Under the pieces are notes generated by a model. The model was not told the DNA's origin and searched no databases. It was given only the letters and a program-made list of their open reading frames with translations. A program made the translations under genes and the position numbers. A DNA stretch of 64,000 nt, taken from Erythrobacteraceae bacterium CFH 75059 (GTDB taxonomy: Bacteria; Pseudomonadota; Alphaproteobacteria; Sphingomonadales; Sphingomonadaceae). The DNA is taken from NCBI GenBank assembly GCA_004331795.1, contig SJSR01000002.1, positions 372,001 to 436,000 of the forward strand, written 5' to 3'. Positions 7,367 to 23,999 of the stretch are shown piece by piece (the stretch's first letter is position 1; every line of letters starts with the position of its first letter).

Positions 7367-8950
7367 ATGCTTTTCGGTCGTGTGAAGCCGTTGGACGCCA
7401 TTCTGGCGACCGCGAAGAAGAAGTCGCTTGAACGGACGCTCGGCGCCTTGCAGCTCACGCTGTTCGGCATCGGCGCGGTGATCGGCACCGGCATTTTCGT
7501 GCTGACCTCCGAAGGGGCGCAGAAAGCGGGACCCGGCCTCATGCTGGCGTTCGCCATTGCCGGGCTGATCTGCATCGTCGCGGCGCTGTGTTATGCGGAA
7601 ATTGCGTCCATGATCCCCGTGGCCGGTTCCGCCTACACCTACACCTACGCCACCATGGGCGAATTGCTGGCCTGGACGGTGGGCTGGGCACTCGTGCTCG
7701 AATATGCAGTGGCCGCGTCGGCGGTGTCCGTGGGCTGGTCAGGCTATTTCGTCGGCACGTTGCGCGAACTTGCCGGTATCGACCTGCCGATCTGGTTGAC
7801 GGCCGGTCCGGTGGCACTGGGCGGCGCGCCGGGCGGCTTCATCAACCTGCCGGCGGTGTTCATCGCCGGGGTCATCACCTGGCTGCTGATGATCGGCACC
7901 ACGGAGAGCGCGCGGGTCAACGCCATTCTCGTCGTCATCAAGGTGGTGGCGCTCACGACCTTCATCGTGCTCACCCTGCCGAGCGAGGAATTCGACACGG
8001 GCCGGTTCAATCCGTTCCTCCCGGCGGGCGTGTTCGGTGGGTTCGGAACGGGGCTGGGCGCCGTCGGCGCGGCGGCGATCATCTTCTTTGCCTATGTCGG
8101 GTTTGACTCGGTCTCGACCGCGGCAGAGGAAACCAAGAACCCGCAGCGCAACGTCCCCATCGGGCTGATCGGGAGCCTGCTGTTCTGCACGGTCTTCTAC
8201 ATCCTCGTGGCGGCCGGCGCGATCGGCACCATCGGCGGGCAGCCGATCATGGGTCCGAACGGCATTCCGTTCCCGGCGGGTTCGGCCGAACTCGCGCGCC
8301 AGTGCGCGCTGCCGCAGTATGCGGACTGGCTCGTGTGCTCGAACGAGGCGCTTGCCCATGTCCTGCGGCAGATCGGTTATTCGACCATCGGCAACATGCT
8401 GGGGCTGGCGGCGTTCATCGCCCTGCCGTCGGTCATTCTCATCCTGCTTTACGGGCAGACGCGCATCTTCTTCGTGATGTCGCGCGACGGGCTGCTGCCG
8501 GAGGGGCTGTCGAAGATTCATCCGAAGTGGAAGACCCCCTATGTGGTGACGCTGATGACCGGATGCGTGGTGGCGTTTGCGGCCGCGTTCCTGCCGGTCG
8601 GCCGGCTGGCGGAGATCGCCAACACCGGCACGCTGTATGCCTTCCTGATGGTGGCGCTGGCGGTGCTTCTCCTGCGGGTGCGCGATCCGCAGCGGCCGCG
8701 GGCCTTCCGGGTTCCCGGGGTCTGGTTCGTGGCGCCGGCGGCGATGTTCGGTTGCGCCTTCCTGTTCTTCAACCTTCCGGCAAGCGCCATGCTCGTGTTC
8801 CCGGTGTGGGGTGCGGTCGGGCTGCTGATCTATTTCGGCTACAGCCGCAGCCGCAGCCATCTGGGCCGCGGCATTGTCGAGGTCGTCGACGACATCGAAG
8901 GCCGGGAGACGATGCTGCCGATCGACGCGCCGGGCGCGGCGGAGCGCTAG
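7367..8950 (+). CDS. APC-superfamily amino acid permease
   Basis: Inner-membrane amino-acid transporter of the cationic amino acid/YfnA-like branch, 527 residues with about 12 hydrophobic segments. The N-terminal substrate and sodium-site motif [15 protein letters not shown] is present, as are [13 protein letters not shown] and [21 protein letters not shown] long extracytoplasmic loop at about residues 290-330 contains two cysteines (ARQC and WLVC) that could form a disulfide. The start at 7367 has GGAGGGG at 7349-7355; the frame upstream of it overlaps panB and is rejected. Specificity is not assignable. An intrinsic terminator follows. Confidence 0.93.
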
Positions 8951-9598: not shown

Positions 9599-9627
9599 TT
9601 GCCACAGCCCTGTGCATGGAACATAAC
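9599..9627 (+). promoter_or_regulatory. Promoter of imuA-imuB
   Basis: TTGCCA (9599-9604), a 17-base spacer and CATAAC (9622-9627) resemble a housekeeping promoter. The -10 lies inside the LexA box. The predicted transcript start falls at about 9634, on an in-frame ATG. A 10-bp palindrome ACACGCGTGT (9590-9599) abuts the -35. Confidence 0.5.
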
Positions 9628-9633
9628 AGGAAC
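9619..9633 (+). promoter_or_regulatory. LexA (SOS) box upstream of imuA
   Basis: The exact direct repeat GAAC-N7-GAAC (GAAC 9619-9622, GAAC 9630-9633) is the complement of the alphaproteobacterial LexA box GTTC-N7-GTTC. It covers the predicted -10 element, so bound LexA would block transcription of imuA-imuB. Confidence 0.85.
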
Positions 9634-10437
9634 ATGAGTCTTCGACACGGATCTGCTGCCGGCCCTGCTGCTGTCATGTCCGCTCTCCCGCACAAGGTGG
9701 CCGCGGCGCGGACCGGACCGCGCGGGTCTTTGCCCGGTGAGCGCTGGCACCCGGGGAAAACCATGACAAGGCCGCCGGTTCTGCATGGGGAGGTGTTCGG
9801 CAGCGGGAATGACGCCGCGGCCTGCGCCGCTGCACTTGCTCTGGCCATGGACGGCTGGCGCAGCGCGCAGGCACGCGGTTCACTCCGCGAGGAGCAGGAT
9901 CGCCGCAGCGTGCTGTGGGTTCAGACCCGCAAGGCTGCCCGCATTGGCGGGGTGCCATACCGTCCCGGCCTTCCCGCAGATGTGGCCGACCGCCTCGTTC
10001 ATGTGCTTGCCCGCACCTGCGAGGATGCCCTGTTCGCCATGGAAGAAGGGCTGCGGTGCCGGGATCTGGCTTTCGTGCTGGGCGAAGTGGACGGCAATCC
10101 GCGCGCACTCGACTTCACCGCCTCGCGGCGTCTCAGCCTTGCGGCAGAGCGGCACGGCGTGCCGCTGTGGCTGATCCGTCTCGACGCCGAGGCCGAGCTG
10201 TCGTCGGCGCGGGCACGCTGGCGGGTGCAGGCCCGGCCGTCCTCGCCGCCGCAGTGGAATCCGGCGGCACCGGGAGCCGCGACCTGGCATGGCGAACTCT
10301 TCCGCTCGCGGCTTCATCCGCCCGGAGAATGGCTGCTGGCCTGGGACGGCGCCGGCCAGCTCGGCATCGTCTCCGCCGACGCGTTGCCGCCCATGCGCAC
10401 AGGAACCCGGCATGGCATGCGCGGACAGCCCGGCTGA
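9634..10437 (+). CDS. imuA: ImuA, mutasome accessory protein (SulA/RecA-like fold)
   Basis: Partner of ImuB and DnaE2 in damage-induced translesion synthesis. The recognisable core begins at about 9763 with VLHGEVFGSGNDAAACAAAL, then RSVLWVQTRKAARIGGVPY, LAFVLGEVDGNPRALDFTASRRL and PLWLIRLDAEAELSSARARW. It resembles RecA/SulA-type folds but has no Walker A motif. Start choice is uncertain. ATG 9634 fits the promoter (leaderless, 267 residues). ATG 9676 begins typical GC-rich codon use. ATG 9763 has GGGGA upstream but would give only 224 residues. The next gene, imuB, follows after 21 bases. Confidence 0.85.
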   Translation: MSLRHGSAAGPAAVMSALPHKVAAARTGPRGSLPGERWHPGKTMTRPPVLHGEVFGSGNDAAACAAALALAMDGWRSAQARGSLREEQDRRSVLWVQTRKAARIGGVPYRPGLPADVADRLVHVLARTCEDALFAMEEGLRCRDLAFVLGEVDGNPRALDFTASRRLSLAAERHGVPLWLIRLDAEAELSSARARWRVQARPSSPPQWNPAAPGAATWHGELFRSRLHPPGEWLLAWDGAGQLGIVSADALPPMRTGTRHGMRGQPG

Positions 10438-10458
10438 TCCATCCGCGGCAGCACGGTC

Positions 10459-12042
10459 ATGACCGGCTCGCCTCGGGCGGAACGCCGGATCCTGTCGTTC
10501 TGGTGCCCGGACCTTTCGCTCGACCGCTGGCGGCAGATGCACGGGTGCGGCGCGGGGGAGGGCGCCGATGCCGTGCCGGTGGTGCTGTTTGCCGACACCG
10601 CTCATGGCCCGCGGATTGCCGCGGCCAACGCGGCCGCCGCGGCGGGTGGGGCGCGGCGGGGCATGATGCTGGCCGATGCGCGCACCCTGTGCCCCGCGAT
10701 CCGGGCCGTTCCCGCCGATCCGACGGGTGACCGCGCCATGCTGGAGAAGCTCGCTCTGTGGGCTAGGCGCTGGGGACCGTGGAGCGCGCTCGATCCACCT
10801 GACGGCGTGATGGTGGATGTGACCGGCGCGGCGCATCTTTTCGGGGGTGAGCGGGCTTTGCTCGAGGATGTGAGGAGGCGATGCGGCAGGCGCGGATTTG
10901 GCGTGCGGGCGGCGCTGGCGCCCACCGCCGGCGCCGCGTGGGCGCTCGCCCGGCATGGTGCAGACGGCGCCGTCATCGCGGCGGGGGAGGAACCGATGCG
11001 CTGGCTTGCAGACCTGCCGGTTGCGGCGCTGCGGCTCGACGAGGACGTGCTCATCGTGCTGCGCCGGCTGGGGTTCAGGACGCTCGGCGAACTGGCGGCT
11101 GCCGCCGGCGCGCCGGGCGGACGGAGCGCGGTGCATCGCCGGTTCCGCAACCGCCGCTCCGCCGCAGCCAATCCGCTGATCCGGCTGGACCAGTTGCTGG
11201 GCCGTGTTCCCGAGCCGTTGCTGCCGATTGCCCCGCCGCACCAGCCGCTGGTGCAGCGCCGCCTGCTCGAGCCGCTCAGGCACCGCGAGCTGCTCGACCA
11301 GGTGATCGACGACTTGGCCGGCGATCTGGTGCGTGTGCTGGCCGAGCGCGGGCAAGGTGCGCGCCGGCTGGAGCTTGGTCTGTGGCGCGTCGACGGCGAT
11401 GTCGTGGCCCGCCCGCTCGAACTCGCCGCCGCCACGCGCGACCCTGCCCACATCGCCCGCCTGTTCCGGATGCGGCTCGACGATGTCGACGCCGGATTCG
11501 GGATCGAACTGGTGCGGTTGCGAAGCACATGGACTGAATCGCTTGCCAGCGCCCAGGCCGATCTCGAGCGTCAGGCGGACACGCTGGGCACTTCACTGGC
11601 TGCCTGCGTCGACCGGCTCGTCGCCCGTCTCGGCCCCCATGCCGTGCGCCGACCTGTTCCTGCCGCCAGCCACCTGCCCGAACGGGCGCAGAAATGGGTC
11701 CCTCCGCTCGACAGCGGCATGGTGGAGCAGGGGCAGTTGCGGTTTCATGCCCGACCGCTCAGGCTGCTTGAACAGCCCGAGCAGATCGCGGTGCTCTACG
11801 CCACGCCCGACGGCTATCCCCGGCGCTTCCGCTGGCGCGGCCGGGTGCACGAAGTCACGCGCGTCGAGGGACCGGAACGCATCGCGCCCGAATGGTGGCG
11901 CGAGAAAGGGACGGCACGCCTGCGCGACTATTACCGGATCGAGGACGGGGAGGGGCGCCGCTACTGGATCTATCGGCAGGGGCTGATCGGGGACGGGCGG
12001 GGCGGAGTGCCCGACTGGTTCCTCCAGGGGCTGTGGGGATGA
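10459..12042 (+). CDS. imuB: ImuB, catalytically inactive Y-family polymerase homologue
   Basis: Hub of the ImuA-ImuB-DnaE2 mutasome, which tethers the error-prone polymerase to the sliding clamp. The 527-residue protein opens with ILSFWCPDLSLDRWRQ and carries the palm-like VDVTGAAHLFGG at 119-130. Active Y-family polymerases have an acidic pair (SxDE) there, so the Glu is missing, as is typical of ImuB. Helix-hairpin-helix-like and little-finger-like regions follow. The C-terminal extension RFRWRGRVHEVTRVEGPERI is typical of ImuB. I could not assign a clamp-binding peptide with confidence. It is expressed from the LexA-controlled promoter ahead of imuA. Confidence 0.93.
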   Translation: MTGSPRAERRILSFWCPDLSLDRWRQMHGCGAGEGADAVPVVLFADTAHGPRIAAANAAAAAGGARRGMMLADARTLCPAIRAVPADPTGDRAMLEKLALWARRWGPWSALDPPDGVMVDVTGAAHLFGGERALLEDVRRRCGRRGFGVRAALAPTAGAAWALARHGADGAVIAAGEEPMRWLADLPVAALRLDEDVLIVLRRLGFRTLGELAAAAGAPGGRSAVHRRFRNRRSAAANPLIRLDQLLGRVPEPLLPIAPPHQPLVQRRLLEPLRHRELLDQVIDDLAGDLVRVLAERGQGARRLELGLWRVDGDVVARPLELAAATRDPAHIARLFRMRLDDVDAGFGIELVRLRSTWTESLASAQADLERQADTLGTSLAACVDRLVARLGPHAVRRPVPAASHLPERAQKWVPPLDSGMVEQGQLRFHARPLRLLEQPEQIAVLYATPDGYPRRFRWRGRVHEVTRVEGPERIAPEWWREKGTARLRDYYRIEDGEGRRYWIYRQGLIGDGRGGVPDWFLQGLWG

Positions 12043-12058
12043 CGCAATTCCGCAGGTT

Positions 12059-12361
12059 CTACGACCCTGCCCATGGCGAGCCGAAAAGCCCCACGGCCAG
12101 CTCGCCCCAGATCAGCGCCAGCGCCAGCGCCACGCCCGTCAGCCCCACGAGGCGCGTCCGTGACCCGCGCGACAGGCGGAGCACCAGTTCGGCAGCCCCC
12201 GCGCCCGTGACAAGCAGGAGGGTGGCGATGATGAAATCGGACGCGGTCCAGCGCACTGCGTCGGACACGGTCATCCCGAGAACGGGCAGGAGCAGCAGAA
12301 GCGGAATGACCGCCCACATCAGGTGGCGCGGCGTTCTCATCCCCCGGTTCAGAATGCCGTG
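12059..12361 (-). CDS. Small integral membrane protein, unknown function
   Basis: About 100 residues with three hydrophobic segments (AVIPLLLLLPVLGM, DFIIATLLLVTGAGAA and LVGLTGVALALALIWG), so an inner-membrane protein. The start at 12361 lies 8 bases after GGGAG; ATG 12367 is an alternative. It lies tail-to-tail with imuB with only 16 bases between. No motif reveals function, although the pattern resembles uncharacterised small membrane proteins of alphaproteobacteria. Confidence 0.65.
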   Translation of the reverse strand, partial: HGILNRGMRTPRHLMWAVIPLLLLLPVLGMTVSDAVRWTASDFIIATLLLVTGAGAAELVLRLSRGSRTRLVGLTGVALALALIWGELAVGLFGSPWAGS

Positions 12362-12435
12362 CATCGTCATTTCTCCCGCCAGCCCACTCGCTCGCCAGCG
12401 GCACCGGGCGCACGCGTCCGCCCGCACGCCTGCTT

Positions 12436-13377
12436 CTAGAGATTGGCCGGGGTGGTCGCAACGCTGGCGGCCGTCACCTCGTCGACGATCGCCTGCCGGT
12501 CCTGCCGACTGGCGCCATCCAGACCATCGAAAATGCCGCCTTCCTCGCCGCCGGTGCGCTGCAGGAACGCGATGATGTCCTCGGCCAGCCGCTCCGTCTG
12601 CGTGGCGAACAAGCCGTGCGGCTCTCCGCCATACTCCAGCAGCTCGGCCCCGGGCACCTCCTGCGCCACCACGCGCGCGGTGGCATCGATCGGCACCGTC
12701 CGGTCGTCCGTGCCGTGGATGACGAGCGTGGGCACGGTGAAGCTGGGCAGGTCAGGGCGGAAGTCGGTGGTGGCAAACGCCTGCGCCGCTTTCAGCACGG
12801 CATGGCGCGAGGCCATCATGGCCGTGTTCCAGGCCCACTGTTTCTCTTCGTCGGCAACGCGGCTGCGCACCCATCCGTCGCCGTAGAAATCCTGAAAGAA
12901 CCCGGTGAAGAACCGCCGGTAGTCGGTCTCCATTCCTTCGGCCATCTGGTCGAACGTCGACTGGGGAACGCCGTCGGGGTTCGAGTCGGTTTTGAGGAGG
13001 TACGGGACCACCGACCCGACCAGCACCGCCTGCGCCACGCCCTTGCCCCCATGCCGGCTCATGTAGCGCGCAACTTCGCCGCCCCCCATGGAGAAGCCGA
13101 CCAGGGCAACATCCCGCGTGGCGTTCATCGCCGCCATGACGTCAGCCAGATCATCGGTGAAGGTGTCGTAGTCATAGCCGCGGGGCGCATGTTCCGAATG
13201 GCCAAAGCCGCGCCGGTCGTAGGCGATGGCGCGAAACCCGCTGTCCGCGAGGGCGATCATCACCGGATCCCAGCTGTCCGCCGACAGCGGCCAGCCATGG
13301 ATGAGGACGACAGGGCGCCCCTCGCCAAGCTCCTTGACCCGGAGCTGAGTGCCATCGCGTGCGTCCACATACTTCAT
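12436..13377 (-). CDS. Alpha/beta hydrolase (non-haem chloroperoxidase/esterase type)
   Basis: Serine hydrolase of the cofactor-free haloperoxidase/esterase branch, 313 residues. The oxyanion region HGWP is at 27-30. The triad is readable as Ser96 in GFSMGG, Asp225 in HGTDD and His254 in GEPHGLF. DRRGFGHSEHAPRGYDYDTF is typical of the family. GGGGACAAGCG precedes the start at 13377. A tail of about 35 residues follows the fold. The gene diverges from the SOS-controlled radical SAM operon. The natural substrate is unknown, and a detoxifying role is only a guess. Confidence 0.9.
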   Translation of the reverse strand: MKYVDARDGTQLRVKELGEGRPVVLIHGWPLSADSWDPVMIALADSGFRAIAYDRRGFGHSEHAPRGYDYDTFTDDLADVMAAMNATRDVALVGFSMGGGEVARYMSRHGGKGVAQAVLVGSVVPYLLKTDSNPDGVPQSTFDQMAEGMETDYRRFFTGFFQDFYGDGWVRSRVADEEKQWAWNTAMMASRHAVLKAAQAFATTDFRPDLPSFTVPTLVIHGTDDRTVPIDATARVVAQEVPGAELLEYGGEPHGLFATQTERLAEDIIAFLQRTGGEEGGIFDGLDGASRQDRQAIVDEVTAASVATTPANL

Positions 13378-13483
13378 CGCTTGTCCCCGCAGGTTCCTGT
13401 GCTTCTGGAACGCCGCCTTCGGCATCTGGTTTCAGTCGGCGGCGCGCGGCCGCCGCAGGAAGGGCTGGTCAAACCATGGTTGA

Positions 13484-13498
13484 GAACATATAAGGAAC
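13484..13498 (+). promoter_or_regulatory. LexA (SOS) box upstream of the radical SAM-UdgX-dnaE2 operon
   Basis: A second exact GAAC-N7-GAAC (GAAC 13484-13487 and 13495-13498) ends three bases before the ATG at 13502. The spacer contains TATAAG (13489-13494), a good -10 hexamer, as in the imuA box. LexA binding would cover both the -10 and the AAGGA ribosome-binding-like sequence. Confidence 0.85.
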
Positions 13499-13501
13499 AA
13501 C

Positions 13502-14746
13502 ATGGCAGAGATGACGCTCATGCAGAAGCTGGAGGTGCTTGCCGACGCCGCCAAGTATGACGCTTCCTGCGCCTCGTCGGGCACGGCGCGCAAGAACTCT
13601 CTCGGGGGGAAAGGGATCGGCTCGACGGAGGGAATGGGCATCTGCCATGCCTATGCGCCGGATGGCCGTTGCATCTCGCTGCTCAAGATCCTGCTGACCA
13701 ATCACTGCATCTTCGACTGCCACTACTGCATCAACCGCAAGAGTTCCAACGTGCGGCGCGCCCGCTTCACGCCTCAGGAAGTGGTCGACCTCACGCTCAG
13801 CTTCTACCGCCGCAACTACATCGAAGGCCTGTTCCTGTCCTCCGGCATCGTGAAAAGCTCCAATCACACCATGGAACAGCTGGTGGAAGTGGCGCGCATC
13901 CTTCGGGAAGAACACGATTTTCGTGGCTACATCCATCTCAAGACCATTCCCGACGCCGATGCCGAACTGGTTCATCAGGCGGGGCTGTATGCCGACCGGG
14001 TGTCCATCAACGTGGAGTTGCCGACGGATGCCGGTCTGACCCGCCTCGCGCCCGACAAGGACGCGCGCCAGATCGAAGGGGCCATGGGCGGCGTGCGCAT
14101 GGCCATCGCGCAGGCGAAGGACGAAAAGAAGCGCTTCCGCAATGCCCCTCGCTTTGCGCCCGCCGGACAGTCCACGCAGATGATCGTGGGCGCCGACGGG
14201 GCGTCCGATGCCGACATCGTGGGCAAGGCCAGCCGGCTGTATGACGGGTTCAAGCTGCGGCGGGTCTATTACTCGGCCTTTTCGCCCATCCCGGATGCGA
14301 GCGCGGTGTTGCCGCTCAAGCGGCCGCCCCTTGTCCGTGAGCACCGCCTTTACCAGTCGGACTGGCTGATGCGGTTCTACGGCTTCTCGCCGCGCGAGGT
14401 GATGCAGGCGACCGGCGAGGATGGCAACCTGCCGCTCGACATCGATCCCAAGCTTGCCTGGGCGCTGAAGTTCAGGGACCAGTTCCCGCTGGATGTGAAC
14501 CGCGCCACGCGCGAGCAGTTGCTGCGCGTGCCGGGTCTGGGTGTGCATGCGGTCAACCGCATCATCGCCTCCCGCCGCCACCGCAGCTTGCGCTTGCAGG
14601 ACGTAGGCCGGCTCACCGCATCGATCAGCAAGGTCCGCCCCTTCATCTGCACGGTCGACTGGCGCCCCACCGCGCTGGCCGACCGGGCCGACCTGCGCGC
14701 CCTTCTGGCACCAAAAAGCGAGCAGCTTGAACTGTTTGCCGCATGA
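13502..14746 (+). CDS. Putative DNA modification/repair radical SAM protein
   Basis: Radical SAM enzyme of the family found paired with UdgX-like proteins (TIGR03916 type), 414 residues. The 4Fe-4S motif is CIFDCHYC (Cys69, Cys73, Cys76), followed by INRKSSN and the barrel motifs LFLSSGIVKSSNHTMEQ and HLKTIPDADAELV. The C-terminus holds a helix-hairpin-helix, LLRVPGLGVHAVNRIIASRR, indicating DNA or RNA contact. The reaction is not established for the family. It begins an operon: its stop overlaps the next start by four bases (ATGA), and a LexA box lies immediately upstream. Confidence 0.9.
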   Translation: MAEMTLMQKLEVLADAAKYDASCASSGTARKNSLGGKGIGSTEGMGICHAYAPDGRCISLLKILLTNHCIFDCHYCINRKSSNVRRARFTPQEVVDLTLSFYRRNYIEGLFLSSGIVKSSNHTMEQLVEVARILREEHDFRGYIHLKTIPDADAELVHQAGLYADRVSINVELPTDAGLTRLAPDKDARQIEGAMGGVRMAIAQAKDEKKRFRNAPRFAPAGQSTQMIVGADGASDADIVGKASRLYDGFKLRRVYYSAFSPIPDASAVLPLKRPPLVREHRLYQSDWLMRFYGFSPREVMQATGEDGNLPLDIDPKLAWALKFRDQFPLDVNRATREQLLRVPGLGVHAVNRIIASRRHRSLRLQDVGRLTASISKVRPFICTVDWRPTALADRADLRALLAPKSEQLELFAA

Positions 14747-16206
14747 GTTCGGCACGCTCTCTCAGGAACGTGAAGCTCGGCACCTATTACGTGGTGCAAT
14801 TGCCCGAGCCGGACGACTTCGATTTCTGGCGCGAGCGGGCGCGGATCATGGTGCAGTGCGACGTGCCGCCTGACCGGATTGCCTGGATCGAGCCGGGAGG
14901 ATCGGGCGACCTGTTCGCTCACGGTGACCGCCGCCTGCCCGTGCCTGCCGATCCGGCCCGGCCCGTGCGCGCGTCCAGACGGTTTCTGGCCTTGGCGAAG
15001 AACGCGGCGCTGCACTCCGATCCGGATCGCTGGGCGCTGCTCTACCGGCTGTTGTGGCGGCACCAGAACAACGGACGGATCATGGAGGACAAGGCCGATT
15101 GTGACGTTGCGCGGCTGGAAGCGCTCGACAAGGCGGTGCGGCGCGACAGTCACAAGATGCATGCCTTTGTCCGCTTCCGCATGGTGGAGGTCGACGATGC
15201 CGCCGGAACCCCGCAGGAGCATTACGTCGCGTGGTTCGAGCCGGAACATCACATCGTTCGGGCCAATGCCGGCTTCTTCATGCGGCGGTTCGCCAACATG
15301 CGCTGGTCCATTCTCACTCCGCGCGGCTCGCTGCATTGGGACGGGGAGGTGATGCGTGAAGGCCCGCCGGCCTTGCGAGCGGATGCACCGGCCGGGGATC
15401 CGGTGGAGGATCTGTGGCGCAGGTATTACGCCTCGATCTTCAACCCCGCGCGCCTGAAGGTCGGCGCGATGCTGAAGGAGATGCCGAGGCGGTACTGGAA
15501 GAACCTGCCCGAAGCCGCACTCATCCCCGAACTGGTGGCCGGAGCGCAGGGCCGGGAGGCGCAGATGGTCGAGGCGGGCGCTCTGGCGTTTGAGGCGCGG
15601 CCGGACTCGCTGGAGGAGATTGGCAAGGCGATCCACGCCTGCCGCAAGTGCCCGATCGGTCTCCTCGACAACACCGCGGTCATGGGCGAGGGGCCGCGCG
15701 ACGCGCCGCTGATGATCGTGGGGGAACAGCCCGGAGACAAGGAGGATCTGGCCGGCCGCCCCTTCGTCGGCCCGGCCGGCCAGTTGCTCGACCTGCATCT
15801 GGAGAAGGCAGGCATCCCGCGGGACCGGACCTACGTCACCAACGCCGTCAAGCACTTCAAATATGTCCATCGCGGCAAGTTCCGGCTGCACCAGTCGCCC
15901 GCCGCCAAGGAAATCGACACCTGCCGCTGGTGGCTCGAGGGTGAGCGCGCCCTCGTCCGCCCGCGGCTCGTTCTTGCCTTGGGGGCGAGCGCCGCCCGCG
16001 CGCTGCTCGGCAAGACGGTCAGCATCTCGCGGGCACGCGGACGCCCGCAACCTCTCGACGATGGCAGCGAGTTGTGGGTGACCGCGCATCCGTCCTACCT
16101 GCTGCGTCTGGAGGGCGAGGCGCGGGAGGCGCAGACGCGGCTTTTCGACGCGGACCTGTCGGCCGTGCGCGCGCGGCTCGAGGAGCTGTGCGCACCGGGC
16201 AGTTGA
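14743..16206 (+). CDS. DUF4130 - UdgX fusion, uracil-DNA binding/glycosylase-like protein
   Basis: 487 residues with two parts. Residues 1 to about 260 form a DUF4130-type domain (HKMHAFVRFRMVE and ANMRWSILTPRGSLHWDG). From about 300 onward lies a family-4-like uracil-DNA glycosylase of the UdgX class. It has GEQPGDKEDLAGRPFVGPAG from residue 327 and the R-loop KFRLHQSP with His383, which corresponds to the His that forms a covalent bond with uracil-DNA in mycobacterial UdgX. AHPSYLLRL gives the C-terminal HPS motif. It is translationally coupled to the radical SAM gene upstream and lies 6 bases before dnaE2, so all three are likely produced together under SOS control. Confidence 0.9.
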   Translation: MSSARSLRNVKLGTYYVVQLPEPDDFDFWRERARIMVQCDVPPDRIAWIEPGGSGDLFAHGDRRLPVPADPARPVRASRRFLALAKNAALHSDPDRWALLYRLLWRHQNNGRIMEDKADCDVARLEALDKAVRRDSHKMHAFVRFRMVEVDDAAGTPQEHYVAWFEPEHHIVRANAGFFMRRFANMRWSILTPRGSLHWDGEVMREGPPALRADAPAGDPVEDLWRRYYASIFNPARLKVGAMLKEMPRRYWKNLPEAALIPELVAGAQGREAQMVEAGALAFEARPDSLEEIGKAIHACRKCPIGLLDNTAVMGEGPRDAPLMIVGEQPGDKEDLAGRPFVGPAGQLLDLHLEKAGIPRDRTYVTNAVKHFKYVHRGKFRLHQSPAAKEIDTCRWWLEGERALVRPRLVLALGASAARALLGKTVSISRARGRPQPLDDGSELWVTAHPSYLLRLEGEAREAQTRLFDADLSAVRARLEELCAPGS

Positions 16207-16212
16207 GCCGCC

Positions 16213-19200
16213 GTGCCGGACGCACCCCTTACCCCGGACAAGCGGACGATCGAGGTCGATCCCGACCTGATCGACACGCCTGCACGTGCGCCGTTCGTGG
16301 AACTCGGCGTCATGTCGTGCTTCTCGTTCCTTCGCGGCGCCTCGGATGCGGTGGACCTGGTGCTCACCGCTCGGGCGCATGGCTACGATGCCATCGGCAT
16401 CGCCGATGCGAATTCGCTGGCCGGGGTGGTGCGACTCCACACCGAGGCGAAAACACTGAAACTCCGGCCGCTTGTCGGGTGCAGGATCGAAACGGTGGAA
16501 GGTCTGACGCTGCTTGCCTATCCGACCGGGCGAGCGGCCTATGGCCGGCTGTGCAGGCTCGTGTCCGCGGGACGCATGGCGACGCTGGAGGGCGAATGGC
16601 AGGAGAAGGGGGCCTGCCACATCTCGCTGGCCATGCTGGCCGAACATGCCGAAGGTGTGCAGCTCATCCTGCTGCCGCCGGCCGACCTCGACGCGCCGCT
16701 GACGGTCGCGGTGCCGGGCAACGTCGTGCCGATGGCGGGAACCGGCCCGTCATCGCGCACGATCGACGGCACACTGGCGCAGCTTCTGCCGGAGCTCGTC
16801 CGCATCCTGCCGACGATGCGGCATCTGGCGGTGTCGTTCCTCTACCGCGGCGACGATGTGGCCCGGATCAACCGGCTGGATGCGTTGGCGCGGGATCACG
16901 GGCTGTCCATCCTTGCCACCAACGATGTCCATTATCACGCGCCGGAACGGCGGCCGCTGCAGGACGTCATGACGGCCATCCGCCACAAGACCACCGTGGC
17001 TGCGGCCGGACATCTGCTGCACGGGAATGCCGAACGCTACCTGAAGCCGCCGGAAGTCATGCTGCGCCTGTTCGCGCCATGGCCGCATGCGATCGCGGCG
17101 GCGCGGGCGGTGGCCGATGCATGCCGCTTCAGCCTGGACGAGCTGACCTACGAATATCCCGAGGAGATCCTCCCGGCCGGTCTCGATCCGCAGACCCATC
17201 TGGTGCAGGAGACGTGGCGCGGAGCGCAAGGGCGGTTTCCGGACGGCATTCCCGACGCCGTGCGCAGCACCCTTGAACGGGAGCTGGAGCTGATCGGCAG
17301 GCTGGAGCTGGCCCGGTACTTCCTCACCATCAAGGACATCGTTGATTTTGCCCGCAGCCAGGATCCGCCCATCCTGTGCCAGGGGCGGGGCAGCGCGGCC
17401 AATTCGGCGGTGTGCTACTGCCTTGGCATCACCAGCGTCGATCCCTCGCGGCATCAGCTGCTGTTCGACCGCTTCATTTCCGAGGAACGCCGCGAACCCC
17501 CCGACATCGACGTCGATTTCGAGCACGAGCGGCGCGAGGAGGTGATCCAGTACATCTACCGCAAATACGGGCGCCACCGCGCCGGGCTCTGCGCGACGGT
17601 GATCCATTACCGGCCGCGCATGGCGATCCGCGAGGTGGGCAAGGCGATGGGGCTGAGCGAGGATGTGACCAGCGCCTTGGCCGGCATGGTGTGGGGCGGG
17701 TGGGGCACCGAAATCGGTGACCGCCACGCGGCCGAGACGGGCATGGATGTCTCCGATCCGCATCTCAGGCGCGTGCTCGCACTGACGCGCCAGATGATCG
17801 GCATGCCCCGCCATCTGGGTCAGCATGTCGGCGGGTTTGTCCTGACCCAAGGGCCGCTGATCGAAACGGTGCCGATCGGCAACGGCGCCATGCCCGAACG
17901 TTCGTTCATCGAGTGGGACAAGGATGACATCGACGCTCTGGGCATCCTCAAGGTCGACGTGCTGGCGCTGGGGATGCTGACCTGCATCCGCAAGTGCCTC
18001 GACCTGCTGGAGGATCACCATGGCAAGGCGCTGACGCTTGCCACGGTTCCGCGCGAGGACGAAGAGACATACGCCATGCTGCGGCGCGGGGACTCGCTGG
18101 GGGTGTTCCAGGTGGAAAGCCGGGCGCAGATGAACATGCTGCCGCGGCTGCGCCCGCGCGAGTTCTACGACCTGGTGATCCAGGTGGCGATCGTGCGACC
18201 CGGCCCCATCCAGGGAGACATGGTGCATCCCTACCTCAAGCGCCGGCGCGGTGAAGAGCCGGTGGTGATCCCCGCGCCGGGTCCCGGACACGGCCCTCCC
18301 GACGAGTTGTCCAGCATCCTTGCCCGCACGCTGGGCGTTCCCATCTTCCAGGAGCAGGCCATGAAGATCGCGCTCGATGCGGCGCGGTTTTCCTCGGCGG
18401 AAGCCAACCGGCTGCGCAAGGCCATGGCCACCTTTCGCAGCCGCGGCATGGTGGACGAACTGCAGGACATGATGGTCGAGCGCATGGTGGCGCGCGGCTA
18501 CGACCGGGAGTTCTCGCAGCGCTGCTTCAACCAGATCCGGGGGTTCGGCGAGTATGGCTTTCCGGAAAGCCACGCCGCCAGCTTTGCCCATCTGGTCTAT
18601 GTGTCGAGCTGGCTCAAATGCCATTATCCCGCCGCTTTCGCCTGCGCGCTGCTGAATTCGCAGCCCATGGGGTTCTATGCGCCGGCGCAGATCGTCCGCG
18701 ACACGGTGGAGCATGGCGTGCCGGTGCTGCCGGTCGATGTGAACCACAGCAGCTGGGACTGCACCCTTGAGCCCGCAGGGCGGGGCCACACCGCACCGGA
18801 GGGCGATGGGGCCGGTCGGTCTGCCCGGCATCCGGCGCTGCGGCTCGGGCTGCGGCAGATCGATGGACTGCCCGAAGCGGTCGCCGCACGCCTCGTGCAC
18901 GAGCGCGAGGAGCACGGTCCGTTTGCCGACGTGCGCGCGCTGCGCGAGCGGACGGGACTGTCACCCGCGCATATCGAACGGCTGGCCAGCGCCGACGCGT
19001 TCGGCAGCATGGGTCTGTCCCGCCGACAGGCGCTGTGGGATGCGCGCAGCCTCATTGCCGGACCCGACCTGCCGCTGTTCGCCCACGCGGCTGCACGCGA
19101 CGAGGGAGCGGATGCGCGCATTGCCCTGCCGGCCATGCCGCTTTCGGAGGAGGTGGTGGCCGATTACCAGACGACCCGGCTCAGCCTCAAGGCGCATCCG

Positions 19201-19752
19201 GTGGCGTTCCTGCGCGCGTCGCTGGCGGAACGCGGCTTCGTGCGCGCGGCCGACCTGCGCCAGAAGAGGTTTCGCGCCATGGTGCAGGTTGCCGGCGTGG
19301 TGCTGATCCGGCAGCGGCCGGGCAGCGCGAAGGGTGTCTGCTTCATCACGCTGGAAGATGAGACGGGCGTCATCAATCTGGTGGTCTGGCCGGATCTCAA
19401 GGAGAGGCAGCGCCGCGTCGTCATGGGCGCGCGCCTGATGGAAGTGCGGGGCCGGGTCGAATACGACGACGAGGTGATCCATGTCATCGCGCAGCACATG
19501 ACGGACGCCAGTCATCATCTTTACCGCCTGTCCGACGACCTGTTGAACGCGCCGGTCGCGCGGGCCGATCATGTCACCAGCCCGCTGCCGGCCAAGTTCG
19601 GTCCGCGCGATGGCCTGCGCGACGGCAACCCGAATCCTTTTCAGCCGGTCGAGCCTTGGCAGGAACCGCCTGCGGGAAGCAAGGAATGCGGCTGGCACGG
19701 CGGCCATCCGCGGGATGTCCGGATCGTTCCGCAGCCGCGCGATTTTCACTGA
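16213..19752 (+). CDS. dnaE2: Error-prone DNA polymerase DnaE2 (ImuC)
   Basis: C-family DNA polymerase that performs translesion synthesis with ImuA and ImuB. The N-terminal PHP domain starts MSCFSFLRGASD; the palm holds GRGSAANSAVCYCLG and the catalytic PDIDVDF (Asp431, Asp433, Asp435). VFQVESRAQMNMLPRLRP and the C-terminal OB domain (QVAGVVLIRQRPGSAKGVCF) follow. At 1179 residues it is somewhat longer than typical DnaE2 (about 1080-1100), partly because of a glycine-rich insertion near residues 855-875 and N-terminal extra residues. The GTG start at 16213 is 6 bases after udgX. It is separated from imuAB by about 4 kb but shares SOS control. Confidence 0.95.
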   Translation: MPDAPLTPDKRTIEVDPDLIDTPARAPFVELGVMSCFSFLRGASDAVDLVLTARAHGYDAIGIADANSLAGVVRLHTEAKTLKLRPLVGCRIETVEGLTLLAYPTGRAAYGRLCRLVSAGRMATLEGEWQEKGACHISLAMLAEHAEGVQLILLPPADLDAPLTVAVPGNVVPMAGTGPSSRTIDGTLAQLLPELVRILPTMRHLAVSFLYRGDDVARINRLDALARDHGLSILATNDVHYHAPERRPLQDVMTAIRHKTTVAAAGHLLHGNAERYLKPPEVMLRLFAPWPHAIAAARAVADACRFSLDELTYEYPEEILPAGLDPQTHLVQETWRGAQGRFPDGIPDAVRSTLERELELIGRLELARYFLTIKDIVDFARSQDPPILCQGRGSAANSAVCYCLGITSVDPSRHQLLFDRFISEERREPPDIDVDFEHERREEVIQYIYRKYGRHRAGLCATVIHYRPRMAIREVGKAMGLSEDVTSALAGMVWGGWGTEIGDRHAAETGMDVSDPHLRRVLALTRQMIGMPRHLGQHVGGFVLTQGPLIETVPIGNGAMPERSFIEWDKDDIDALGILKVDVLALGMLTCIRKCLDLLEDHHGKALTLATVPREDEETYAMLRRGDSLGVFQVESRAQMNMLPRLRPREFYDLVIQVAIVRPGPIQGDMVHPYLKRRRGEEPVVIPAPGPGHGPPDELSSILARTLGVPIFQEQAMKIALDAARFSSAEANRLRKAMATFRSRGMVDELQDMMVERMVARGYDREFSQRCFNQIRGFGEYGFPESHAASFAHLVYVSSWLKCHYPAAFACALLNSQPMGFYAPAQIVRDTVEHGVPVLPVDVNHSSWDCTLEPAGRGHTAPEGDGAGRSARHPALRLGLRQIDGLPEAVAARLVHEREEHGPFADVRALRERTGLSPAHIERLASADAFGSMGLSRRQALWDARSLIAGPDLPLFAHAAARDEGADARIALPAMPLSEEVVADYQTTRLSLKAHPVAFLRASLAERGFVRAADLRQKRFRAMVQVAGVVLIRQRPGSAKGVCFITLEDETGVINLVVWPDLKERQRRVVMGARLMEVRGRVEYDDEVIHVIAQHMTDASHHLYRLSDDLLNAPVARADHVTSPLPAKFGPRDGLRDGNPNPFQPVEPWQEPPAGSKECGWHGGHPRDVRIVPQPRDFH

Positions 19753-19753
19753 G

Positions 19754-20482
19754 GTGACGACGCCCCTGTTCTCGCGCCGCATCGGACGGTTTCGAGGCGA
19801 TCGCGCGGTGCTGGCGCTCCTCTTCGTCGCTGGACTCTTCCTGTCGGCCAGAGCCTGGCTGTCCGCGCATCCCCAGCACGATCCCCGGGCGCCGCTCGAT
19901 TTGCGCCAGCCCGACGGATGGACCACCGCCGCCAAGTTCGCGCGGATCAAGGAGGACGTCGCCGAGTGCCGCGCCGTTCTCGAGCGGAGCGATGTGGCGC
20001 ATGCCGTGCTGCCTCCTGCGGGCGAGCCGCCCTGCCTGCAGGCCGACCGCGTGCAGCTCGCGCAGGCGAGCCTCGCCCCTACGTCACCGCCCGTCACCTG
20101 TCCGGTCGCCGCTGCCATGACCCGCTGGCGAACCGCCACCGTGGAGCCGGCGGCGGAGGCGCTTCTGGGAAGCGCGCTTGCCCGCATCGAACATGTCGGC
20201 GCGTTCTCCTGCCGCCGGCTGTACGGGCGCGAAGACGGCGCCTTCAGCGAACACGCGACCGGCAACGCCATCGACATCGCCGCGTTCGTGCTGAGCGACG
20301 GAAGGCGGATCAGCGTGCTTCAGGACTGGTACGGCGACGATGAGGAGGCACGCTTCCTGCGCGCGGTGCGCGATGGCGCGTGCCGTGTCTTCGCCACCGT
20401 GCTGTCCCCGGACTACAACGCCGCGCACGCCGATCACTTCCATTTCGACCAGTCCGGGCGCTGGCGACGCGTCTGCCGCTAG
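19754..20482 (+). CDS. Extensin-like C-terminal domain protein
   Basis: 242-residue membrane-anchored or secreted protein. A hydrophobic N-terminal segment (AVLALLFVAGLFLSARAWL) precedes an extensin-like_C domain with SCRRLYGREDGAFSEHATGN, AIDIAAFVLSDGRRI and the C-terminal HADHFHFD, recalling peptidase-like zinc folds with conserved His and Asp. The domain is common in alphaproteobacterial envelope proteins but its reaction is not established. The GTG start at 19754 is one base after the dnaE2 stop; the upstream part of the frame inside dnaE2 is rejected. It may simply read through from the SOS operon. Confidence 0.82.
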   Translation: MTTPLFSRRIGRFRGDRAVLALLFVAGLFLSARAWLSAHPQHDPRAPLDLRQPDGWTTAAKFARIKEDVAECRAVLERSDVAHAVLPPAGEPPCLQADRVQLAQASLAPTSPPVTCPVAAAMTRWRTATVEPAAEALLGSALARIEHVGAFSCRRLYGREDGAFSEHATGNAIDIAAFVLSDGRRISVLQDWYGDDEEARFLRAVRDGACRVFATVLSPDYNAAHADHFHFDQSGRWRRVCR

Positions 20483-20497
20483 CGCACGGCGCCTTGA

Positions 20498-21184
20498 TCA
20501 CGGCTCCAAAGCGTAGCCGGCCGAACGCACCGTGCGGATCGGATCGCGCAGCCCTTCGACCTCGATGGCCTTGCGCAAGCGGCGGATGTGCACGTCCACG
20601 GTGCGCATCTCGATGTCGCTTCCCGTGCCCCAGACCCCGTCGAGCAGCTGCCCGCGGCTGAAGACCCGGGTGGGGTTCTCCATGAAGAACTTGAGCAGCC
20701 GGTATTCCGTCGGCCCGAGCTGAAGCGTCCGGCCGGCGCGCTCCACCCGGTGCGCGACCGGATCCAGCCGGATATCCCCGACCTCCAGCACCTGCCCCGC
20801 CAGAGCGGGACGGATCCTGCGCATCACGGCGGTGACCCGGGCCAGCAGCTCGCGCGGGCTGAAGGGCTTGGTGATGTAATCGTCGGCGCCCGTCTCCAGA
20901 CCGCGGATCCGGTCGTCCTCGCTTTCGCGCGCCGTCAGCATGATGATGGGCGTGTGCGCCGTCTGCTGGTTCCGCCTCAAACGGCGGCAGACCTCGATGC
21001 CGGACGTGCCGTTGATCATCCAGTCCAGGATGATGAGATCCGGGCGCTCCTCGGCGGCGAGGATCAGCGCCTCGTCGCCGTCGGCCGTGGTGCGAACGTC
21101 ATAACCCTCGTTGCGGAAGCGGTACTGGAGCAGCTCCGCCAGCGAGGGATCGTCTTCGACCAGCAGCAGTTTGGCCGCATCCAT
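20498..21184 (-). CDS. phoB: Phosphate regulon response regulator PhoB
   Basis: OmpR-family response regulator activated by PhoR. The receiver domain has acidic pair Asp11-Asp12, phospho-acceptor Asp54 (IILDWMING) and KPFSPRELLARV. The C-terminal winged helix has LGPTEYRLLKFFMENP and RTVDVHIRRLRKAIE. The ATG at 21184 is preceded by AGGGAG and is preferred to the TTG one codon earlier. It is the last gene of the phoR-pst-phoU-phoB run, 54 bases after phoU. Confidence 0.96.
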   Translation of the reverse strand: MDAAKLLLVEDDPSLAELLQYRFRNEGYDVRTTADGDEALILAAEERPDLIILDWMINGTSGIEVCRRLRRNQQTAHTPIIMLTARESEDDRIRGLETGADDYITKPFSPRELLARVTAVMRRIRPALAGQVLEVGDIRLDPVAHRVERAGRTLQLGPTEYRLLKFFMENPTRVFSRGQLLDGVWGTGSDIEMRTVDVHIRRLRKAIEVEGLRDPIRTVRSAGYALEP

Positions 21185-21238
21185 CAACTCGCTCCCTGTC
21201 CAATCCCCTGCGCCCGCGGAGCCGACGCTGCGCGCGCC

Positions 21239-21934
21239 TCATGACGTCGTGGCGCGCTGCCTTTGCCCGTCCTCCGCTTCCGGCGGGTAGGAGCCGGTCG
21301 CGGCGAAATGGACCATCTCGGCGACATTGGTGGCGTGGTCGCCGATCCGCTCGATGTTCCGCGCCACGAACAGCAGCTGTGCCGCGCTCGAAATGGTGGC
21401 CGGATTCTCGACCATGTGGCTGACCAGATTGCGGAAGATGCTGTCGTAGAAGGCATCGACCTTCTCGTCCGAGCGGATCACCTCCAGCGCCAGCTGGGCA
21501 TCGCGCGCCGCGTAGGCCGTGAGGACGTCGTGCACCATTTCGCCGGCGATCTCGCCCATGGTGGGGAGCAGGGTGAGCGGTTCGAACCGGCTGCGGTTCT
21601 CGATCCGGCCCACGCGTTTGGCGATGTTCTTGGCGTAGTCGCCGATGCGCTCCACCACGCCGCCGATCTTGAGCGCCGCGATCACTTCGCGCAGGTCGTC
21701 GGCCATCGGCGCACGCAGGGCGATGATCTGCACCGCGAGCCGGTCCACCTCGACCTCGAGCTGGTCGAGCCGGCGGTCGCGCGCCACCACCCTGTCGCCG
21801 AGCGCCTCGTCGCCACGGATCAGCGCCTCGAGCGCCTCCTGCAAGGCAACCTCCGCCAGCCCGCCCATTTCGGCGATGAGGCCGCGCAGGCGGGTGATGT
21901 CCTCGTCGAAAGCCTTGACGGTGTGTTCTCTCAT
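21239..21934 (-). CDS. phoU: Phosphate signalling protein PhoU
   Basis: Two three-helix PhoU repeats over 231 residues. It links the Pst transporter to PhoR and represses the regulon when phosphate is sufficient. The metal-cluster motifs are visible as ERIGDYAKNIAKRV and ERIGDHATNVAEMV, one in each half. The ATG shares one base with the pstB stop (TGATG), so translation is coupled. The open frame continues far upstream through pstB but is a shadow there. Confidence 0.96.
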   Translation of the reverse strand: MREHTVKAFDEDITRLRGLIAEMGGLAEVALQEALEALIRGDEALGDRVVARDRRLDQLEVEVDRLAVQIIALRAPMADDLREVIAALKIGGVVERIGDYAKNIAKRVGRIENRSRFEPLTLLPTMGEIAGEMVHDVLTAYAARDAQLALEVIRSDEKVDAFYDSIFRNLVSHMVENPATISSAAQLLFVARNIERIGDHATNVAEMVHFAATGSYPPEAEDGQRQRATTS

Positions 21935-22722
21935 CAGCCGTACCGTCCCGTGATGTAGTCCTGCGTGCGCTTTTCGCGCGGATTGGTGAAGATGTCGGTC
22001 GTCGAGCCGTACTCGACCATCCTTCCGAGGTGAAAGAACGCCGTGCGCTGCGAAACGCGGGCGGCCTGCTGCATGGAGTGGGTCACGATGACGATCGCAT
22101 AGCGGTTGGCGAGTTCGGCAATCAGCTCCTCGATCCGGGCCGTGGCGATCGGATCGAGGGCGGAACACGGCTCGTCCATCAGGATCACTTCGGGATCGAC
22201 GGCGATGGCACGGGCGATGCAGAGCCGCTGCTGCTGCCCGCCCGAGAGCGCCGTGCCGGAATCGGTCAGGCGATCCTTGACCTCGTCCCACAGGCCGGCG
22301 CGCTGCAGGGACCGTTCGACGACCGCGTCGAGCTCGTCCTTCTTCTCGGCAAAGCCGTGGATGCGCGGGCCATAGGCCACGTTCTCGTAGATGGATTTGG
22401 GGAACGGGTTCGGTTTCTGGAACACCATCCCCACACGCGCCCGAAGCGCGACCACGTCCATCCTGGAGCGGTAGATGTCCTCCCCGTCCAGCAGGATCTG
22501 CCCCTCGACGCGCGCCGTCGGGATGGTGTCGTTCATCCGGTTGAGCGCGCGCAGGAAGGTCGACTTCCCGCATCCCGACGGGCCGATGAAGGCCGTGACG
22601 AAGGCTGCCGGAATGTCGATCGACACGTTGTCGATCGCCTTGTTGGCACCGTAGTACACGGACACGTCGCGCGCCTGCATCTTGATCGCGCCGCCGGAGG
22701 GTATGGGTGGCTGTGTCACCAT
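21934..22722 (-). CDS. pstB: Phosphate ABC transporter ATP-binding protein
   Basis: ATPase of the high-affinity phosphate importer. Walker [10 protein letters not shown] is at 47-55. The signature [14 protein letters not shown], Walker [15 protein letters not shown] and switch histidine in [10 protein letters not shown] are all intact. [20 protein letters not shown] is characteristic of PstB. Length of 262 residues is normal. It overlaps the pstA end by seven bases. Confidence 0.97.
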
Positions 22723-23999
22723 CGTCGTTCAAACCTGTTGCGAAGATATATGGCCAGGGCGTTCATCGTCAGCAGGAACAGCAGCAGCACGATGATCGCC
22801 GCGCTGGTGCGCTCGACGAATCCCCGGCTGACCTCGTCCGACCACAGGAAGATCTGCACCGGCAGGACCGTGGCCGGCGACGTGAAGCCGTCGGGCGGCG
22901 TGGCGACAAAGGCGCGCATCCCGATCATCAGCAGCGGCGCCGTCTCCCCAAGCGCGCGCGCCATGCCGATGATCGTCCCGGTCAGGATGCCGGGCAGGGC
23001 GAGCGGCAGGACATGGTGGAACACCACCTGCACCGGGCTGGCGCCGAGGGCGAGAGCGCCGTCGCGGATGGACGGAGGCACCGCCTTGATCGCGTTGCGC
23101 CCGGTGATCACGATGACCGGCATCGTCATCAGCGCCAGCGTCAGACCGGCGATGAGCGGCGCGGAGCGGTAGTTCGGAAAGATCGTCAGGAACACCGCCA
23201 GACCCAGCAGACCGAAGATGATCGACGGGACGGCCGCGAGGTTGTTGATGGAGATCTCGATCGCGTCCGTCCAGCGGTTCCGGGGGGCGTACTCCTCCAG
23301 ATACAGGGCCGCGAGCACGCCGATGGGGAAGGCGAGGCTCAGGGTGACGATCATGGTTAGCAACGACCCCTTGAGCGCACCCCAGATGCCGACGTCCTGC
23401 GGCTGGGTGGCGTCCGACCGGGCGAAGAACCCGCCATCGAAGCGCCGCGCCAGAACGCCTTGCGCCTGAAGCGCCTGCGCCTGCCGCTGAAGCTCGGGAT
23501 CGCCGCGCCCTTCGAGTGCCGCGACGAGAGGTGCACTGGCCGGAAGCCACAAGGTCTGCTGCCGCTGGAGCAGGCCCGGATCGGCGGCGATGTGCCGGGC
23601 CACTTCGCGCCACGCATCGGCCGGAACAGGCGAGGGCTGGAGAGGACCGTGCGCCTCCTCGACCGAGCGGGACACAAGTTCGGGCAGTCCCTGCGCCTCG
23701 AGCGAGGCAAGGCCGCTGGCACCGGCGAGCGTCTGCGCATCGCCGGCGATGTCGTCGGCGGCAAAGTTGATCGGCACCGCCAGCTCGACCCGCTGAAACC
23801 CGCGCAGTCCGGTGCTCAGGATGGTGACGAGAAGGATGAGGAGCATCGCCACCGAGACGATCACCGCGCCAAGGCCGAGCGCCTTGAAACGGCGCTCGGC
23901 CGCGTATCGCCGCGCCAGGCGACGCTGATACGCCTCGCCGCGCAGGTCGTGCATGTCGGCAGCCAGCGGCTCCGCTGTCAGGGCGCCTGCATCATTCAT
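22716..23999 (-). CDS. pstA: Phosphate ABC transporter permease PstA
   Basis: Inner-membrane subunit of the phosphate importer, 427 residues. A first membrane segment ([19 protein letters not shown]) is followed by a large extracytoplasmic region at about residues 70-195 typical of alphaproteobacterial PstA (DUF3333 type). The transport domain then follows with [23 protein letters not shown] and the EAA-like loop [20 protein letters not shown]. The ATG at 23999 overlaps the pstC stop by eight bases; a GTG at 24008 is an alternative. Confidence 0.94.

Follow-up and report, generated by a model that had tools for sequence, protein, structure and literature searches.

The window analyzed here, a 64,000-nucleotide (nt) stretch of contig SJSR01000002.1 from Erythrobacteraceae bacterium CFH 75059, harbors two runs of putative SOS genes: imuA-imuB, and a second run comprising a gene for a radical S-adenosylmethionine (SAM) protein, a gene for a DUF4130-UdgX fusion protein, dnaE2, and an extensin-like gene (Table 1). 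The first-pass annotation of this DNA had described an exact LexA box in front of each run, the order of the four genes of the second run, and their tight coupling. Both boxes are exact matches, the radical SAM, fusion, DnaE2, and ImuB proteins score above the cut-offs of their families, and the coupling consists of an ATGA overlap (14743-14746) that joins the radical SAM gene to the fusion gene and a 6-base gap (16207-16212) between the fusion gene and dnaE2. On comparison of loci across genomes, the radical SAM-DUF4130(-UdgX) pair is a separate SOS module joined to dnaE2, rather than a shown part of the mutasome.

Table 1. Features of the SOS island, in coordinates of the window.
Feature	Position	Strand	Remarks
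LexA box GAACATAACAGGAAC	9619..9633	+	Directly 5' of imuA, abutting ATG 9634
imuA	9634..10437	+	ATG 9634 likely start, ATG 9676 possible; weak family match, 27 bits
imuB	10459..12042	+	Y-family-like, DUF6504
Small ORF (open reading frame)	12059..12427	-	No family match; located between the SOS units
Alpha/beta hydrolase	12436..13425	-	Family match; not seen at the equivalent place in linked loci of the order
LexA box GAACATATAAGGAAC	13484..13498	+	3 nt 5' of radical SAM ATG 13502; contains the -10-like hexamer TATAAG
Radical SAM protein, TIGR03916	13502..14746	+	Family score; CX3CX2C; three further invariant Cys (23, 48, 57)
QLELF codons	14723..14737	+	Beta-clamp-binding-like motif; protein ends ...SEQLELFAA
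DUF4130 (TIGR03915)-UdgX (TIGR03914) fusion	14743..16206	+	Starts in the ATGA overlap; GEQPG, R381/H383, HPSYLLR
dnaE2, error-prone DNA polymerase	16213..19752	+	6 nt 3' of the fusion gene
Extensin-like_C gene	19755..20482	+	Probable start GTG 19755; final gene of the run

The genes are ordinary members of the TIGR03916, TIGR03915/TIGR03914, and DnaE2 families. The radical SAM protein scores 577 bits against TIGR03916 (cut-off 343.5), the fusion protein scores 217 bits against TIGR03915/DUF4130 (cut-off 112) and 310 bits against TIGR03914/UdgX (cut-off 190), and the polymerase scores 1395 bits against NF004225 (cut-off 939). ImuB matches PF00817 (IMS), PF11799 (IMS_C), and PF20114 (DUF6504) above the Pfam cut-offs, the last of which we take to be the ImuB C-terminal domain. 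Because ImuA scores weakly against NF033429 (cut-off 150) and matched no Pfam family, its name is drawn from its homologs and from its position, which is held in relatives. The interval from imuB to the radical SAM gene holds two opposite-strand frames, absent from the first-pass annotation, and the island therefore comprises two SOS transcription units. The extensin-like gene most likely starts 2 nt past the dnaE2 stop; the ATG of the long frame (19571) was rejected as its start. The genome also encodes LexA (169.7 bits; cut-off 110.95), with a LexA-type box 60 nt upstream of the family match, and the same type of box belongs to a second gene, whose frame was identified by its N-terminus and which is presumably uvrA. 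In the whole window there are six exact boxes (GAAC-N7-GAAC or GTTC-N7-GTTC), against 1.3 expected.

LexA control of the pair is widespread. A LexA box is found no more than 200 nt from the start of the radical SAM gene at 41/42 loci of the same order, 18/19 of the class, 30/30 from further alphaproteobacteria, and 77/80 named loci (the best 80 of 590), with 0-1 matches per set to reversed-pattern controls; with the window included, 90 of 92 alphaproteobacterial genomes carry a box before the pair. Among 22 non-alphaproteobacteria, 14 have instead the Escherichia coli-type box CTGT-N8-ACAG (control 0) and eight have neither box. The box type thus changes with lineage, and the operator therefore follows the local LexA. 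The first-pass annotation had the pair gaining LexA control through the mutasome; this is not supported, as the pair has its own box nearly everywhere, even where dnaE2 is distant or was not found. The alphaproteobacterial box most often begins at -17 from the start codon. A hexamer matching TATAAT at four or more of six positions falls within the box at 113/149 loci, a count that is uncontrolled, as the box itself constrains the hexamer, and a -35 element of at least 4/6 stands at the right distance in 86/149, versus 11% at random places. With this geometry LexA would occupy the -10 element, and the transcript would have little or no leader. The imuA gene has its own operator: a box lies between -300 and +200 nt of the expected start at 67/68 imuA loci, with a reversed-pattern control of 0/68.

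The radical SAM gene is also common on plasmids (158 records, from Phaeobacter, Leisingera, Paracoccus, Agrobacterium, and others). A Leisingera plasmid locus beside repABC (L268) keeps both the pair and its LexA box, and two viral contigs carry a relative.

A second conserved feature of the module is the C-terminal tail of the radical SAM protein, in which a motif of the form Q[LMF]xL[FLWIA] is present within the last 20 residues in 180/192 homologs (42/42 from the order, 60/70 from the class and phylum, and 78/80 named; L171, an incomplete protein on a 3.9 kb fragment, is excluded). The strict form QL[SD]L[FL] occurs in 59/192 (3, 29, and 27, respectively). Eleven of the 12 tails without the pattern have near forms (QASLF, QGSLF, QLGFGF, QLDMF) and one does not (AEQPRLL). 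The motif is rare elsewhere, being found in about 2% of shuffled tails, in 3/3658 other 20-residue windows of the same proteins, in 1/425 tails of neighboring proteins, and in 9/4430 other open frames of at least 250 codons, many of which are not genes. It is kept in all five plasmid loci fetched (of 40 matches listed, from the 158 found) at 37-67% identity: NQLSLF at the very end in Bacteroidota, RQLKLFNLQ in Fusobacteriota, QLSLW followed by a longer run in Gemmatimonadota, QLSLL in Burkholderiales, and QLSLF in Leisingera. The tail is predicted to be disordered, with a predicted local distance difference test (pLDDT) score below 50 at residues 407-414. Papers are cited here by PubMed Central (PMC) number, from the sections available to us; in these, QL(S/D)LF is given as the bacterial clamp consensus, with the C-terminus as its usual place (PMC9690074, PMC3716654). 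The translesion polymerases Pol II (QLGLF), Pol IV (QLVLGL), and UmuC (QLNLF) share the short, usually C-terminal Q-L-x-L-F (PMC3716654), whereas the carrier of the motif here is a radical SAM enzyme. The clamp-like tail and the operon together suggest that this enzyme repairs DNA at stalled replication forks.

Other proteins of the island were analyzed for similar motifs. The strict pattern occurs in 4/72 ImuB proteins, and ImuB of the window has no clear motif. A [DS]L[FI] motif is found in the N-terminal part of DUF4130 in 35/42 order, 37/70 class and phylum, and 52/78 named loci (GDLF in the window, near residues 55-58 of the fusion protein); having no Q, it may represent either an additional contact with the clamp or just a structural element of the fold. 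In five genomes of one family (f172; L134, L145-L148) the radical SAM tail reads ATQLGFGF instead of QLxLF, and the gene is divergent from imuA.

We then compared gene order. Out of 147 genomes of the order, 43 have a radical SAM protein over the family cut-off, 86 have dnaE2, and 42 have both. The gene order proposed for a survey by the first-pass annotation is conserved: the fusion gene is followed by dnaE2 in the same orientation in 17/42 order genomes, or 18/43 with the window. These genomes span nine genus codes, each belonging to the family of the window, and two further lineages show a divergent arrangement. Co-linkage is likewise seen in 13/80 named loci, from Erythrobacter, Qipengyuania, Alteraurantiacibacter, Croceicoccus, two Novosphingobium, and unclassified relatives. 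Chance adjacency was rejected on account of this conservation in nine genus codes. With gene starts and gaps set by a mechanical rule and the window excluded, the gap between the radical SAM and fusion genes is -4 to 2 nt in 29/30 co-linked loci and that between the fusion gene and dnaE2 is -1 to 9 nt in 26/30, whereas imuB and the radical SAM gene are anywhere from 48 to 3335 nt apart at the 28 loci whose flank includes imuB. The coupled unit is therefore radical SAM-fusion-dnaE2, with imuAB as a nearby second unit; imuA has its own LexA box in all 28 of these loci. Coded genomes and named loci may in some cases represent one species (spacings are identical in L037 and L187), and the rows are related by descent.

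A FastTree phylogeny of the radical SAM proteins (169 of 193 rows, 24 with flanks too short to tell linkage having been dropped) places all 31 co-linked rows in one supported set of 43, together with 12 that are not co-linked. We read this as probably one gain followed by several losses within an Erythrobacteraceae/Novosphingobium clade. The divergent arrangement, in which the radical SAM gene faces imuA-imuB-dnaE2 at 47-164 nt by mechanically set starts, is found in the five f172 genomes, with one shared LexA box in the gap, and in Henriciella pelagia, where one box sits in the gap and another lies at its imuA end or just within it; its label (six rows) needs two changes on the tree, that is, two more origins. 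One co-linked clade and two divergent lineages imply at least three origins of mutasome linkage, in two different geometries. Outside the window's family, the 19 class loci show no dnaE2 within the flank fetched (L171 being the 3.9 kb fragment), and among 52 further phylum genomes the f172 five alone are linked.

The presence of the pair is also associated with that of dnaE2. In genomes with and without the radical SAM gene, dnaE2 was found in 42/43 versus 44/104 (order), 21/23 versus 130/314 (class), and 62/70 versus 84/279 (phylum; 84/219 in assemblies at least 90% complete), by Fisher tests that are uncorrected for kinship and genome size. It was sought at E-values of 1e-200 and 1e-230, so that broken copies may escape. 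Some genomes with the pair lack a detectable dnaE2, and linkage is mostly absent; joint action is therefore not obligatory, which suggests that the pair can work without DnaE2. Of the single damage-tolerance system envisaged by the first-pass annotation, the operators, the operon, the adjacency, and the co-occurrence with dnaE2 hold up; a core role in uracil capture and LexA control derived from the mutasome are not supported as put forward.

An alternative to cooperation at the fork is that radical SAM-DUF4130-UdgX and ImuAB-DnaE2 are SOS modules independent of each other, which sit together since both need LexA, with no biochemical cooperation between them. The pair's own LexA box even when unlinked is consistent with this, as are the lack of a dnaE2 match in 8/70 genomes that have the pair and the existence of relatives that lost the linkage or either partner (L081, L088, L022). 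Against it stand the near-fixed coupling, the co-occurrence with dnaE2, the clamp-like tail, which suggests the same place of action, and linkage to one and the same cassette on three or more separate occasions, for which random placement gives a rough, not strict, chance of 5e-4 (assuming 100 independent lineages and 4000 genes). We consider this mere sharing of a regulator a tentative possibility.

The fusion protein bears on a different explanation, that of the first-pass annotation: a single damage-tolerance system that couples error-prone synthesis with the covalent trapping of uracil or abasic sites by UdgX. UdgX is defined by Q53, R107, H109, and the motif B HPS(S/A)(L/V)(L/V)R, and its covalent chemistry is established (PMC10359453). 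The corresponding Q329, R381, and H383 are invariant in 59 aligned fusions; the window protein has GEQPG and the motif B HPSYLLR, with Y where the definition has S/A. Its predicted UdgX part superimposes on 6l6s with Z 30.1 and a root-mean-square deviation of 1.5 over 198 residues. The fusion thus keeps the residues that define covalent uracil-DNA capture, and capture itself is predicted. A fused UdgX is present at all 40 readable order loci (40/42, two unread), in 47/71 class and phylum loci (22 without, two unread), and in 70/80 named loci (five without, five unread), and SOS uracil-DNA glycosylases (UDGs) have been proposed to address ribonucleotide misincorporation by error-prone polymerases (PMC8565304).

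DUF4130 is the more constant partner, with a frame near the radical SAM gene, adjacent or a few kb off, in 42/42 order, 70/71 class and phylum, and 78/80 named loci; a Spirosoma plasmid likewise has the pair annotated as radical SAM plus TIGR03915. UdgX is missing from 22/69 readable class and phylum loci. When 16 genomes were searched for it, one carried UdgX beside the radical SAM gene, and of the other 15, all without a fused UdgX, two had UdgX elsewhere over the cut-off, six had a weaker UDG-family match, and seven had none. UdgX was accordingly ruled out as the core of the module: it is optional, being absent from 22/69 loci and without a match over the cut-off in 13/15 such genomes, and uracil capture is therefore not the core role that the first-pass annotation had assigned to it. 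Coupling to uracil capture also leaves the radical SAM enzyme unexplained, and we find it unlikely as an account of the whole. At one order locus (L045, G030) the UdgX part, 3' of DUF4130, is a short frame matching only profile positions 99-231, with the radical SAM, DUF4130, and dnaE2 genes retained.

The radical SAM protein itself has an invariant CX3CX2C motif (C69, C73, C76) and three further invariant cysteines, C23, C48, and C57, across a diverse set of 20 sequences and a mostly named set of 63; these three cysteines would fit an auxiliary iron-sulfur cluster. A helix-hairpin-helix near the C-terminus is weakly matched (Pfam 21.2 bits, cut-off 27; profile E 0.03). Its predicted structure (pLDDT 83.9) has as closest folds lipoyl synthase (Z 16.3, 223 residues, 13% identity) and HydE (Z 16.1, 211 residues, 18% identity), which are tied, and biotin synthase is also among the best. 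Direct reversal of a thymine photoproduct by an SplB-like radical SAM enzyme, with DUF4130 modifying thymines as proposed by Aravind and co-workers, would fit SOS control and is nonetheless improbable, given that SplB had no family match in the profile scans and is absent among the fold matches listed (a fold result not decisive for SplB), and that the three extra cysteines might, on the model of lipoyl synthase, point to an additional cluster.

Parts of this arrangement have precedents. We take COG4277 to be the radical SAM/helix-hairpin-helix family and COG1573 to be the UDG part. A COG1573-COG4277 operon, on that assumption the same gene pair, belongs to predicted SOS networks of Bacteroidetes, with Verrucomicrobia and Caulobacter also cited, under LexA-type control (PMC8565304); SOS control of the pair is thus already published. 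The sections available treat it as a two-gene unit, whereas dnaE2 linkage, the overlap of -10 element and operator, and the clamp-like tail are features of the loci described here. The ImuA-ImuB-DnaE2 mutasome of mycobacteria (PMC10421592) and Caulobacter (PMC1839093) has imuA, imuB, and dnaE2 under SOS control in common with the window, in which dnaE2 is instead separated from imuAB and placed after the radical SAM and UdgX genes, behind a second LexA box. Mycobacterial ImuB docks to the beta clamp, and focus formation needs its clamp motif (PMC10421592). UdgX of Mycobacterium smegmatis (6ail, 6l6s; PMC10359453) is 45% identical to the C-terminal domain of the window fusion, which keeps GEQPG, R107, and H109; unlike it, the window UdgX is fused to DUF4130, behind a LexA box, and next to radical SAM and dnaE2 genes. 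A radical SAM gene of this kind is up in desiccated Acinetobacter (PMC13130816), and in the available parts of PMC9611098 and PMC9848294 such a gene appears in gene lists only. Our search, with the subscription literature mostly outside it, found no report joining a TIGR03916 protein to the beta clamp or the pair to dnaE2; as far as it goes, novelty lies in the operon with dnaE2, in the recurrence of the linkage, and in the clamp-like tail.

Taken together, we think it probable that the radical SAM and DUF4130(-UdgX) proteins are an SOS-induced DNA-repair enzyme pair working at the replication machine. LexA would block RNA polymerase where operator and -10 element overlap, with the mRNA beginning at or near the radical SAM ATG, and DNA damage would release the operon. 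The radical SAM enzyme would then bind the beta sliding clamp through its disordered QLxLF tail, as translesion polymerases do, and contact DNA through the C-terminal helix-hairpin-helix. With DUF4130 it may carry out 5'-deoxyadenosyl-radical chemistry on a damaged base at the stalled primer-template, where the optional UdgX domain could excise or covalently cap uracil or abasic sites, and DnaE2 from the same message, with ImuA-ImuB, would carry primer extension past or after the processed lesion. Both arms would use the same clamp, without forming one stable complex. The pair would in this way operate as an SOS-induced base-processing unit docked on the clamp, active when and where the DnaE2 mutasome is and, in erythrobacters, encoded on the same message as DnaE2. 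The fuller proposal has, in our judgment, an even chance of being right: that TIGR03916 enzymes dock on the beta clamp for fork-based lesion processing with DUF4130 (often UdgX), under LexA in most Proteobacteria examined, exchanging clamp places with ImuB-DnaE2 and co-translated with DnaE2 in erythrobacters.

Several observations weigh against repair at the fork in concert with DnaE2. The proposed clamp binding is read from a motif, and QLELF has E at the consensus S/D position. The helix-hairpin-helix match is under the Pfam cut-off; no fold was assigned to DUF4130 in this analysis, the fold search of the fusion model having returned UDG folds throughout, which says nothing on DUF4130; and no substrate or reaction for TIGR03916/DUF4130 was found in the literature. 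Eight of the 22 non-alphaproteobacteria and the Bacteroidota, Fusobacteriota, and Gemmatimonadota plasmid loci show none of the boxes sought. Most genomes with the pair show no dnaE2 linkage, dnaE2 was not found in 8/70 phylum, 2/23 class, and 1/43 order genomes with the pair (one genome being in both of the first two), and five loci (L022, L026, L032, L173, L176) keep the extensin-like neighbor of the pair with dnaE2 not there. The co-linked label needs nine changes on the tree, three of them forced by well-supported branches, the co-occurrence tests leave kinship and genome size uncorrected, and SOS genes may cluster without functional coupling.

Further observations concern the cassettes and the surroundings of the island. 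In two order genomes (L081, G019; L088, G117) imuA-imuB-dnaE2 is contiguous, the cassette being closed up, and the genome search gave no radical SAM match. The order loci L063-L100 and L021-L046 differ in kind of dnaE2 cassette, with DnaE2 about 46-55% or about 61-80% identical to that of the window, which suggests replacement by another lineage. The pair and dnaE2 lie about 25-46 kb apart in some genomes, a distance not used as evidence. The extensin-like gene is a persistent neighbor of the pair and has no obvious tie to DNA repair. The other exact GTTC-N7-GTTC matches of the window are at 8269-8283, which sits within a long open frame and is probably due to chance, 32167-32181, 38338-38352, and 63927-63941. 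Adjoining the island on the minus strand (20498-24008) are phoB, by family match, and PhoU-, PstB-, and PstA-like frames, identified by eye.

TIGR03916/DUF4130 is a widespread SOS module, and the conserved tail hints at where in the cell its radical SAM enzyme may act, offering a point mutation as a direct handle. The dnaE2 operon provides a genetic setting in which repair chemistry can be separated from error-prone synthesis, and may be informative on the balance that bacteria strike between repair and induced mutation.

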